A DNA stretch of 64,000 nt, from assembly GCA_015068225.1 (NCBI GenBank), contig SVKX01000002.1:62001-126000 (forward strand). Reading direction: 5' to 3'. A program made the position numbers and the translations under genes. Position 1 is the first letter of the stretch. Every line of letters begins with the position of its first letter. This document shows positions 7,161 to 43,311 of the stretch, one piece after another. Under the pieces are notes generated by a model, which ran no database searches, was not told the origin of the DNA, and saw nothing but the letters and a program-made list of their open reading frames with translations. The DNA is from Oscillospiraceae bacterium. Its GTDB lineage: Bacteria; Bacillota; Clostridia; Oscillospirales; Oscillospiraceae.

Positions 7161-7691
7161 TTACTGCCAGAGACATTTTCTGTTCTGTATAAAATACTCA
7201 ATACCGGAATAGACCGTTGTGACAATGATCACGCCGATTGCGATCCAGCCGATCAGCTGAGAGGTGGGGAACGCCATCCAGACGCAAAGGCTGATCATTG
7301 TGCTTGCGGTTTTCACCTTTCCGCTCCAGCCTGCAGCGATTACTGTACCCTTTCCCACAGCGACCAGACGAAGTCCAGTTACTGCAAATTCCCGTGTCAA
7401 AACGATCATAAGCGCCCATGCAGGGAATAATCCCCATTGGCAGAATATGGTCATCGCACCGATCACCATAAGCTTATCTGCCAAGGGATCCAGGAATTTG
7501 CCAAAATCCGTGACCTGATTATATTTTCTGGCAACAGTGCCATCCACATAATCCGTAACACCCGCAAGAATGAATACTGCCAGCGCAAGCCACAGCCAAA
7601 TGCCGGGCACGCCGCCGCTGATGTACATCAGAGTCATATATACGGGAATAAACGCAACACGAACCAGCGTGATTTTACTTGCAGTTGTCAT
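7161..7691 (-). CDS. pgsA: CDP-diacylglycerol--glycerol-3-phosphate 3-phosphatidyltransferase
   Basis: DYVDGTVARKYNQVTDFGKFLDPLADK, the CDP-alcohol phosphotransferase motif. Confidence 0.95.
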   Translation of the reverse strand: MTTASKITLVRVAFIPVYMTLMYISGGVPGIWLWLALAVFILAGVTDYVDGTVARKYNQVTDFGKFLDPLADKLMVIGAMTIFCQWGLFPAWALMIVLTREFAVTGLRLVAVGKGTVIAAGWSGKVKTASTMISLCVWMAFPTSQLIGWIAIGVIIVTTVYSGIEYFIQNRKCLWQ

Positions 7692-25432: not shown

Positions 25433-27736
25433 TCATTTGGCATCCAGCTGGATCTGATCCTCCAATACTCGGATGCAAACCTCGGAAACGGGCGTTTCAA
25501 AGGACTGGATGATGACCTCAGAAATGGGATCTTCCAAATCTCTTTGGATGGTTCTGCGAAGGTTTCTGGCGCCATAAGTGACGGAATACGCCTTTTTCAC
25601 CAGATACTGCCGCAGATCCTCCTCCCAGGACAGTTTCAGTCCCCTATCCGCAAGATTCTGCTTCAGCTCTTGCAGCATAATATCTGCAATATTCAGGAAA
25701 TCCTCTTCAGAAAGGTGATTAAAGGTTATGATCTCATCCACACGGTTGAGAAATTCCGGTCTAAGGAACTCAGACAGGGCCTTCATGGTCTTTTCCTTCA
25801 CCATCTGCTGGTCGGTACGGCCGAAGCCCATACCGCCTACCCTGCCCTCAGAGCCTGCATTAGAGGTCATGACGATGATGGTATTTTCAAAATTTACCTG
25901 CCGTCCCTGGGCATCGGTGATACGACCGTCATCCAAAACCTGAAGTAAGACATTCAGTACATCCGGATGGGCCTTTTCGATCTCGTCGAACAAGACCACA
26001 GAGTAGGGCTTGCGGCGAATCTTTTCGGTAAGCTGTCCGGCTTCATCATAGCCAACATACCCGGGAGGAGAACCGATCAGCTTGGAAACGGTATGCTTCT
26101 CCATATATTCCGACATATCCAGCCGGATCAGGCTGTCCACACTGTCAAACAAGTCATCTGCCAGCCGCTTGACAAGCTCCGTCTTACCAACGCCGGTAGG
26201 ACCTACAAAGATAAAGGACGCGGGTCGCTTTTTGGGAGAAATACCCACACGATGCCGGCGAATTGCACGGGAAACAGCATCTACAGCCTCATCCTGCCCC
26301 ACAATATGTGCCTTCAAGCGATCCTTTAGGCCGTTGATCTGCTGATATTCCTGGGCCTTGATCTTAGAAGCAGGGATCTTTGTCCAAAGTTCAATGATCC
26401 GGGCAAGATTTTCAATGGTCACCGCCGGCGGAGGCACCTGCTCCAGCTCCTCGATCCTTGCAGCCACCTGACACAGCTTGCTGCGAATGTGGGCAAGGCG
26501 CTCGTAATGCTCATTTTCGGTGTCTTCCGTGAGCATCTGCAGCTCCAGCTCATAGTCATCCCGCTCCTTGCGCAGCATGGCAAGCTCAGAGATCTCCTTA
26601 CAGCGCAGGTTCACATCGGAGCAGGCCTCATCCATCAGGTCAATAGCCTTATCCGGCAGGAAACGGTCAGTAATATATCGCTCGGAAAGAATCACGCATT
26701 GCCGGGCAATCTCCGGAGAAATGGTCACACCGTGGAAGTCGGCATAGCTCTTTGCAATGCCCTGCATGATCTGGCATGCTTCCTCAAGAGTCGGTTCTGC
26801 AACACTCACCGGCTGAAAACGGCGCTCCAAGGCGGCATCCTTTTCGATGTGCTTGCGGTACTCGTTATATGTGGTTGCGCCAATGACCTGGATCTCACCT
26901 CTGGAAAGGGCAGGTTTCAGAATGTTGGCAGCATTCATAGAGCCTTCCGCGTCTCCGGCGCCCACCAGATTGTGAACTTCGTCGATCACAAGAATAATAT
27001 TGCCGCATTCCTTGATTTCACCGATCAAGCTTTTCATCCGGCTTTCAAACTGACCGCGGAATTGCGTTCCGGCGACCAGAGCCGTCAGATCCAGCAAAAA
27101 GACTTCCTTATCCCGAAGCTTATAGGGCACATCTCCTGCAGCGATCCGCTGCGCCAGGCCCTCCGCAATGGCAGTCTTACCTACACCCGGTTCACCAATC
27201 AGGCAAGGATTGTTTTTTTGGCGACGGTTCAGGATCTGAATGACCCGCTCCGTCTCCACATCCCGTCCAATTACTTTATCCAATTTTCCTTCCCTGGCCC
27301 TTCCGGTCAGGTCCATGCAGTAATTGTCCAGAAACTTATGTTTTTTATTCTTGCGCTTGGGCTGGTCACCCTCATTATTTTCCGTGCCTTTTTCTTCCTT
27401 ACGGTGTGCAGGGTGGTTTTGCTGAGGCATCATGGGACCACCAGGGCCGAAAAGCTGGTTCAGCATGGGAAATGTTGCCGTCTGTGAATCCATTTCATCC
27501 TCATCCAGATCTTCTTTGTCCATCTGGCCGAACATACTGCTCATTTCATCTGTCAGATTATCCAGATCTTCCTCAGAAAAGCCCATCTGTTTTACTGCCT
27601 GATCGATCTGAGGGATTCCAAGACTTCTGGCGCACTTCAGGCAGAAGCCTTCATTCATGGTTACGCCATTTTCAACCTTGGTGATGAAAACGACGGCTAT
27701 ATTCTTCTTACATTTGGTACACAGCTTTGGCTGCAT
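25433..27736 (-). CDS. clpE: ATP-dependent Clp protease ATP-binding subunit, ClpE-type (N-terminal zinc finger)
   Basis: N-terminal CTKC...[20 protein letters not shown] and [10 protein letters not shown] Walker A motifs; no ClpN repeats. Confidence 0.9.
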
Positions 27737-35630: not shown

Positions 35631-35639
35631 TCTTTCCTG

Positions 35640-35861
35640 CTTGGTGCGTGATGTGTCCTTTTGGACCCACATTTTTTAATAGGGATGCTTGACTTCCTGT
35701 TCGTTTTGCAGACCTCCCGCCTGCGCTTTGACGTATGGTGGACGTTGGGAGCAGTTTAGACCCGGAGCGGCAACCCACCTGCCGTTTGGTGCAGGTCATA
35801 ATTGGATGCACACGGCCAAAGCGGGAATTTGCATGAGGAGCAGTCTGCTCCTCATGTTTTT
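35640..35861 (+). ncRNA. Structured small RNA, possibly 6S RNA (SsrS)
   Basis: About 220 nt with no credible CDS, several potential helices and a strong intrinsic terminator at 35832-35861 not attached to an ORF; location after DUF1292. Confidence 0.5.
35832..35861 (+). terminator. Intrinsic terminator of the structured RNA
   Basis: CATGAGGAGC-AGTCT-GCTCCTCATG followed by TTTTT. Confidence 0.88.
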
Positions 35862-41943: not shown

Positions 41944-41958
41944 TCTATAAGATTAAAA

Positions 41959-41984
41959 CTCCCGCAAGCTTTCGCTTGCGGGAG
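41959..41984. terminator. Intrinsic terminator between rplA and the convergent lipoprotein gene
   Basis: CTCCCGCAAGC-TTTC-GCTTGCGGGAG. Confidence 0.85.
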
Positions 41985-41991
41985 AATTTAT

Positions 41992-42816
41992 TTATTTAAC
42001 TTTTACATTGGACAGGATGAGGTAACTATCGCCGTTGGGCTTCAAAGTAATAACGAACATGTCATCACCCATACATTCGTAGGTCAGTGAAACGGTTCCG
42101 TCATCGTTGTGTTTCAAATCAAGGAAGGAGCCCATCTTAGGGTTCGATGTCATTCCGCCCGACAGGAAGCAATAGGAATTAGAGCATTCCAAGTAAAACA
42201 CTCCACTAAACGCGCTGTCCACCAGATCCGCCACAGAAATGCCAAAGAGGGCTTGAAGCTCATCATTGATCTTAGCTACGGGAAGACGGAAGAAGTCGGT
42301 ATATGGTCCATCACCATCGGTCGGGCCGAGAATCTGTTTTTTGAGCTCTTCCCATTCTTCGTCAGTTATTTCGTGCTCTCCCTCAAAGCCGCCGTCATAA
42401 AAGTAATACAAATTCAATTCCTCGGGAGAAGCATATTCAAAGCCGAGAGCATAGGCATAGGGGTTTCGCTCACCCCCCCAGCGAAACAGTTCTTCAAATG
42501 CTTCCAGTTCGGCAGCTATCTGCGGATCAACGGAGGGTGAAGTTGGCGCAGCGGTCTGTGTGGGTGTAGTTGTTTCCGTTGGTGCAGCGGTCTGTGTGGG
42601 TGCAGTCGTTTCCGTAGGTGCAGTGGTTACTGTGGGAGAAGTTGTTACTGTGGGAGAAGTTGTTACTGTGGGAGAGGTGGTTACCGTGGGAGATGTGGTC
42701 ACGGTAGGTACGGTTGTTCCATCCCCGTCGGTTGGATTCGTTGAAGTAGGGTTGCAGGCGGCAAGAAGCAGCCCGAGGGACAAAAGCGCAACGACAAAAT
42801 ATGCAATCTTTTTCAT
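41992..42816 (-). CDS. Lipoprotein with PTVTTS/PTxTTA repeat linker
   Basis: MKKIAYFVVALLSLGLLLAACNPTSTN lipobox; ATG at 42816 with SD; repeat linker then about 180-aa domain. Confidence 0.8.
   Translation of the reverse strand: MKKIAYFVVALLSLGLLLAACNPTSTNPTDGDGTTVPTVTTSPTVTTSPTVTTSPTVTTSPTVTTAPTETTAPTQTAAPTETTTPTQTAAPTSPSVDPQIAAELEAFEELFRWGGERNPYAYALGFEYASPEELNLYYFYDGGFEGEHEITDEEWEELKKQILGPTDGDGPYTDFFRLPVAKINDELQALFGISVADLVDSAFSGVFYLECSNSYCFLSGGMTSNPKMGSFLDLKHNDDGTVSLTYECMGDDMFVITLKPNGDSYLILSNVKVK
42545..42710 (-). repeat. In-frame tandem repeats (18-bp and 36-bp units)
   Basis: gttactgtgggagaagtt-type 18-bp units and ggtgcagcggtctgtgtgggtgcagtcgtttccgta-type 36-bp units. Confidence 0.85.
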
Positions 42817-42865
42817 AATGACTCTCCTTTCCAGTTTTATCAGTAACAGCCAGCAAGCTGACAAA

Positions 42866-42909
42866 TAAAAACGCATAGGCTGATTCGAACTTACGATACA
42901 GCCTATGCG
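42866..42909 (-). terminator. Intrinsic terminator/attenuator upstream of the lipoprotein gene
   Basis: Minus strand CGCATAGGCTG-16 nt loop-CAGCCTATGCG followed by TTTTTATTT; stem contains the uORF stop. Confidence 0.75.
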
Positions 42910-42989
42910 CGGAATATATCACCTTTCTTGAAAGGAAAAGAGCAGAAAGGCGGACTCCACAGGCTGCGGCAAAGCGTATTGTGAGCCAT
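42903..42989 (-). CDS. Putative 28-codon upstream ORF / leader peptide
   Basis: AGGGGAG SD then ATG: MAHNTLCRSLWSPPFCSFPFKKGDIFRA*; own promoter upstream. Confidence 0.45.
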   Translation of the reverse strand: MAHNTLCRSLWSPPFCSFPFKKGDIFRA

Positions 42990-43026
42990 GGTGGATCTCC
43001 CCTTCCCTGTTTTTATTTCCATCTTC

Positions 43027-43055
43027 AGTATATATTACTTAAATCATCATGTCAA
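43027..43055 (-). promoter_or_regulatory. Sigma-A-type promoter reading toward the uORF and lipoprotein gene
   Basis: Minus strand TTGACA - 17 nt - TATACT. Confidence 0.75.
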
Positions 43056-43146
43056 TAAACAAATTATTACAATATGGATATAAAATATTACATTTGAAAT
43101 ATTCGTAAATAACGTTTACTTTTTCGGGATTTTTCTTAAAATAATG

Positions 43147-43311
43147 CTTGACAATTACATATATCTATGGTATTATTCTCCTGTTGCCAAAGACAGCAGG
43201 TGCCGCAAGGCGTAAGTCCTGCCGAGGTGCGTCTAACATTTCTTTGATTGTTTGCGTGTCTTTCTGTCTTCTGGCAGGAAGACACTTTTTTATTTTCGGA
43301 GGTGAAATCAA
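43147..43311 (+). promoter_or_regulatory. rplJL promoter and L10-type leader with attenuator
   Basis: TTGACA-17 nt-TATTAT; caggtgccgcaaggcgtaagtcctgccgaggtgc leader; GTGTCTTTCTG...CAGGAAGACAC-TTTTTT attenuator hairpin. Confidence 0.85.

Follow-up and report, generated by a model that had tools for sequence, protein, structure and literature searches.

The promoter, small open reading frame (ORF) and intrinsic terminator located ahead of the lipoprotein gene in the window (the whole 64000 nt stretch of DNA analysed) have as their best single explanation, plausible though tentative, that they make up a young, species-specific leader terminator of that gene, possibly coupled to the ribosome. The unit would make up the 5' leader of that gene and function as a leader terminator, with transcription probably starting at ~43020, most polymerases halting at the terminator, whose end is near 42866, and the lipoprotein being expressed by those that continue past it. 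A ribosome on the last codons or on the stop codon of the small ORF would cover the 5' arm of the terminator and increase read-through, and a ribosome held at the ORF start or at approximately codons 17-20 would favour a competing antiterminator (the 2:3 hairpin) during synthesis of the 3' arm. The features are listed in Table 1.

Table 1. Leader features and lipoprotein gene, in window coordinates
Feature	Position	Strand	Details
Promoter, sigma-70 type, TTGACA-17-TATACT	43027..43055	minus	11/12 consensus matches; TTGACA 43055-43050, TATACT ends at 43027
Predicted 1:2 hairpin, would-be anti-antiterminator	42944..43007	minus	-25.5 kcal/mol, z -2.0; hides SD of small ORF
Shine-Dalgarno (SD) sequence of small ORF, AGGGGAG	42997..43003	minus	7 nt ahead of ATG
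Small ORF, 28 codons	42903..42989	minus	MAHNTLCRSLWSPPFCSFPFKKGDIFRA*; ATG at 42989; TAG 42905-42903, within terminator 5' arm
Predicted region 2, antiterminator strand	42944..42967	minus	GCAGCCTGTGGAGTCCGCCTTTCT; within small ORF; from folding
Predicted region 3	42898..42928	minus	contains terminator 5' arm; pairs with region 2 or terminator 3' arm; from folding
Intrinsic terminator hairpin, 11 bp	42872..42909	minus	arms CGCATAGGCTG (42909-42899) and CAGCCTATGCG (42882-42872); 16 nt loop
T-rich tail after terminator stem	42871-42863	minus	TTTTTATTT
Weak promoter-like site, TTGTCA-17-GATAAA	42836..42864	minus	9/12 matches, without final T of -10; between terminator and lipoprotein gene
SD sequence of lipoprotein gene	42830-42822	minus	ATG at 42816
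Lipoprotein gene, 274 aa	41992..42816	minus	signal peptide with LAAC lipobox, Thr/Pro-rich linker, C-terminal domain

The promoter, SD sequence, 28-codon ORF and 11 bp terminator that had been described in an earlier note on this DNA were all found on the minus strand, and the order promoter, SD-preceded small ORF, intrinsic terminator and structural gene, which is the general order of a ribosome-mediated attenuator, is present on that one strand. The reported location of the stop codon of the ORF inside the 5' arm of the terminator was confirmed, and the lipoprotein gene, said to begin about 50 nt past the terminator, starts 55 nt after the stem. The presence of a strong promoter ahead of the whole unit, and of only a weak one after the terminator, argues for a leader terminator. 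The former has the top promoter score in the 130 nt upstream region and is equalled by 1% of shuffled sequences, and the score of the latter is reached by 8.4% of shuffles. The strength of the terminator (folding energy -23.2 kcal/mol; z -7.7 against shuffles) points the same way. It was not listed by a simple terminator scan because its 16 nt loop exceeds the 8 nt loop limit of that scan.

In shuffled upstream sequences, P was 0.005 for an SD-ATG ORF with 20 or more codons and its end within the terminator arm, which also favours a leader terminator. When the ORF was allowed to end anywhere in the last 100 nt or in the arm, P was 0.025. The genome sample (~434 kb, the window included) has 27 terminators with a gene after them, so that ~0.7 cases of this looser event would arise by chance, and the ORF cannot by itself count as strong evidence. 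No coding signal was found in the small ORF (codon log-odds P 0.51, a test with weak power at 28 codons), and its peptide includes no run of control codons for amino-acid attenuation of the trp or phe type.

In the 434 kb sample, an SD-preceded small ORF before the terminator and an SD-preceded gene after it, with no larger gene upstream, were found at only 4 of 126 terminators, which further supports a leader terminator. The four loci are the lipoprotein leader, the leader of a DAHP-synthase gene, a ferredoxin-like gene and a 9-codon GTG frame. Counting against it, terminators close to a gene are common here. A same-strand gene is located within 120 nt downstream of 20 of 138 intergenic terminators, many being plain 3' ends of the preceding gene, and terminators with a gene 20-60 nt downstream are frequent in the genome, several of them with promoter-like -10 sites right after the T-tract. 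A terminator ~50 nt before a gene is therefore by itself no sign of attenuation. At a ferredoxin-like locus (L093, position 8182, minus strand), a gene for 56 aa is followed by a terminator and by the start of the next gene 17 nt further on, a natural stand-alone small-gene layout.

The DAHP-synthase gene, named from its sequence and not by family search, is preceded by a leader unit (L091, about 7173-7364; G000:C12, about 27173-27364) in which the leader peptide MISITAAQFFFGYYYFFMDKK (L091, about 7173-7238) is followed by the terminator and then the gene. Judged by its sequence, this unit is a textbook Phe/Tyr leader-peptide attenuator. It had no Rfam match at gathering score, and was found in 109 of 136 genomes of the genus by the same kind of DNA search as was used for the lipoprotein leader. 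All 12 of the loci read encode the peptide core FFFGYYYFF or a near variant of it. The organism therefore very probably uses leader-peptide switches, and the presence of such an attenuator elsewhere in the genome lends support to a leader terminator ahead of the lipoprotein gene. As the search was able to find the DAHP-synthase leader in most genomes, a conserved lipoprotein leader would have been detected, and the contrast between the two is informative: the lipoprotein leader is without control codons and conservation, and of the two regulatory elements, the DAHP-synthase Phe/Tyr leader peptide, conserved in most of the genus, has the better support.

At the DNA level, the leader and the lipoprotein gene were absent from the 135 other genomes of the genus and were present only in their own. 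The earlier note had proposed a search for homologous leader peptides, and had held that lack of conservation of the peptide or stem, together with lack of a transcript starting near 43020, would speak against its reading; the search found no such peptide or stem in these 135 genomes, which is the first half of that pair. The absence of relatives of both leader and gene, like the absence of control codons and of a coding signal, counts against a leader terminator, and the two marks of an amino-acid attenuator of the trp or phe type, a control-codon run and a conserved leader, are both missing. DNA searches with 175 nt and 1.1 kb of sequence matched only the window for the leader, and gave weak matches within the lipoprotein gene; a repeated or mobile element was rejected as the leader was returned from the window alone. 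Phage records gave chance matches only (E 0.2-0.8), and no match to the lipoprotein was found in viral contigs. No Rfam riboswitch, T-box or known small RNA matched the leader at gathering score, and the best match in a permissive Rfam scan was a chance-level one to mir-26 (E 1.5). A tRNA-derived origin, considered because GTTCGAATC in the loop resembles a T-arm, was ruled out as ARAGORN detects no tRNA.

Folding of the leader RNA predicted an antiterminator pairing within the ORF, unnoticed in the earlier note, that adds some support for attenuation. In the growing transcript, the 1:2 hairpin is predicted to form first, the MFE structure flips to the 2:3 antiterminator hairpin (23 pairs, 42967-42944 with 42928-42898; -28.2 kcal/mol) once the 5' arm of the terminator has emerged and the 3' arm has not, and the last stage again has the 1:2 hairpin, now together with the terminator. 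The 1:2, 2:3 and 3:4 layout, as modelled, is the arrangement of trp-like attenuators. This flip favours a leader terminator, as does a duplex of 9 contiguous bp between the terminator 5' arm and the ORF (-15.0 kcal/mol), which is matched by 0.4% of shuffles and 1.6% of window segments. The energy of the duplex between arm and upstream sequence is in the top 2.9% among 138 genomic terminators, and the 2:3 hairpin has a z-score of -4.3 with borders chosen after the fact. However, the alternative pairing is unremarkable by broader measures, none of which is significant: MFE arm pairing is as strong in 46% of shuffles, the best unbranched hairpin is reached by 19% of shuffles and 27% of GC-matched genomic stretches, and 20% of terminators reach the energy ratio of antiterminator to terminator. 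Fold energies of the whole upstream region were uninformative as a test for an antiterminator, as unrelated pairing dominates. The support for the alternative pairing given by these models is modest and suggestive only.

The geometric claim that a ribosome at the end of the ORF would disrupt the terminator holds in a folding model, in which the ribosome footprint was blocked codon by codon along the ORF and the leader refolded. The complete terminator was prevented only with the P-site from approximately codon 25 to the stop, and partly at codons 23-24; footprints at codons 26 to the stop abolished it, in favour of a leader terminator. In the same model, ribosomes at codons 1-3 and 17-20 favoured the transient antiterminator. 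At equilibrium the complete terminator wins unless a ribosome is at the ORF end, and this is largely so for the DAHP-synthase attenuator too, which is terminator-dominated at most codons. Equilibrium folding of the complete leader was therefore uninformative as a discriminator, and its result does not count against attenuation at the lipoprotein leader. The earlier reading of the unit as a candidate attenuator is partly supported: its geometry holds and the pairing in the ORF adds to it, but conservation, a codon signal and control codons were not found. It is unlikely that the leader is a newly evolved, ribosome-coupled attenuator of a single species, with an ORF that extends over regions 1, 2 and 3 up to a stop in the terminator arm, and that it controls the surface lipoprotein in response to the overall state of translation instead of a single amino acid.

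The lipoprotein gene is located between rplA and the L10 leader (RF00557, 43169-43300) with rplJ, on the opposite strand to these; Rfam matches in the window are this L10 leader and a 6S RNA (35631-35831). In the genus, the rplA-rplJ interval (window 41944-43150) is a variable slot that differs in gene content between species and carries no gene in some. It is short (190-330 nt) in some species, including the two nearest by rplJ (97% identity), where it is ~232 nt. Elsewhere the slot carries, on either strand, different lipoproteins, a substrate-binding-type protein or a phosphoesterase-like protein. Other minus-strand slot genes that were inspected (L011, L019, L027 and L029) have promoter-like sites directly ahead and no such leader unit. 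No Pfam family above cut-off was found for the window copy of the lipoprotein. The C-terminal domain of the protein has distant relatives, some of them forming the C-terminal part of BlaR1/M56-like proteins, and no comparable leader was seen ahead of those homologues that were readable. In the same genome, the domain also occurs in duplicate at the C-terminal end of a BlaR1/M56-like protein (L064, 878-3403), which adjoins a BlaI-like regulator, and similar proteins carrying it are found in the relatives G058, G126 and G111.

A possible but somewhat unlikely alternative is a stand-alone small gene, in which a small RNA of ~155 nt or an mRNA for a 28-aa peptide has its own terminator, and the lipoprotein gene is transcribed from the weak promoter-like site that overlaps the T-tract. 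This site could, from its sequence, be the promoter of the lipoprotein gene, and its position in the gap would provide a usable 5' leader, in keeping with the many terminators in this genome that have a gene start 20-60 nt on and with the -10-like sites that follow several of their tails. However, its -10 element is incomplete and its score is not rare among shuffles. The ~155 nt transcript is well folded overall (z -4.1), but this score derives mostly from the terminator (z -1.1 without it), and neither RNA nor peptide is conserved or matches an Rfam family. The coding signal and peptide conservation that would mark a stand-alone peptide gene were both absent, with no relatives found by DNA search.

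It is quite unlikely that the leader terminator works without ribosome control, either as a constant partial terminator that keeps expression low or governed by an RNA-binding protein, a small RNA or a ligand, the ORF being incidental. An ORF with neither codon-usage signal nor control codons would be consistent with this, as would the ~0.7 such ORFs expected by chance in the 27 terminator-gene pairs sampled and the location of the SD sequence of the ORF within a predicted stable hairpin. Against it, the ORF has a good SD sequence, a good spacing and a good ATG, with its stop codon placed precisely in the arm (P 0.005), and no Rfam riboswitch or T-box matched the leader. It is very improbable that the segment is a recent insertion, now drifting and without regulatory meaning: the variability of the rplA-rplJ slot, and its short length in the nearest relatives, agree with it, but the promoter, SD sequence, ORF and terminator are intact and in the correct order, and the lipoprotein frame is open.

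If the leader terminator of the lipoprotein gene is a working one, it would exemplify a leader-peptide switch whose origin coincided with the acquisition of a new gene, beside ribosomal protein genes and without a part in amino-acid sensing. If it is not, it is a warning that a terminator shortly before a gene, combined with a chance ORF, mimics an attenuator in compact genomes.

Attenuators of the trp and phe type, including the DAHP-synthase leader of the same genome, share with the lipoprotein leader the order SD sequence, ORF, terminator and gene, as well as competing hairpins. The DAHP-synthase leader differs in its Phe/Tyr codon runs, its stop codon ~50 nt before the terminator and its wide presence in the genus, none of which applies to the lipoprotein leader ORF. 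In the E. coli pyrBI-type attenuator, the leader ORF passes through the hairpin, a close-following ribosome prevents the hairpin from forming, and a U/C-rich stretch precedes the terminator. The lipoprotein leader ORF likewise runs into its terminator, which follows a U/C-rich stretch, but there is no link to a pyrimidine gene and the ORF stops within the 5' arm without passing through the hairpin. The transcription attenuators of mef(E)/mel and erm(K), with the leader peptides MTASMRLR and MTHSMRLRFPTLNQ (PMC4335068), also place a leader peptide ahead of an intrinsic terminator with alternative pairing; the ORF described here has no RLR stalling motif and is not followed by a macrolide-resistance gene. 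In the vmlR leader of Bacillus subtilis, for which induction has been demonstrated, an antibiotic-sensing 3-codon uORF, an anti-antiterminator, an antiterminator and a terminator precede the gene for an ABC-F resistance factor (PMC9226507). The predicted layout of the lipoprotein leader is similar, with a uORF in the anti-antiterminator hairpin, a competing antiterminator and an intrinsic terminator before the gene, whereas here the ORF has 28 codons, with its SD sequence in the first hairpin and its end in the terminator, and a lipoprotein is encoded downstream.
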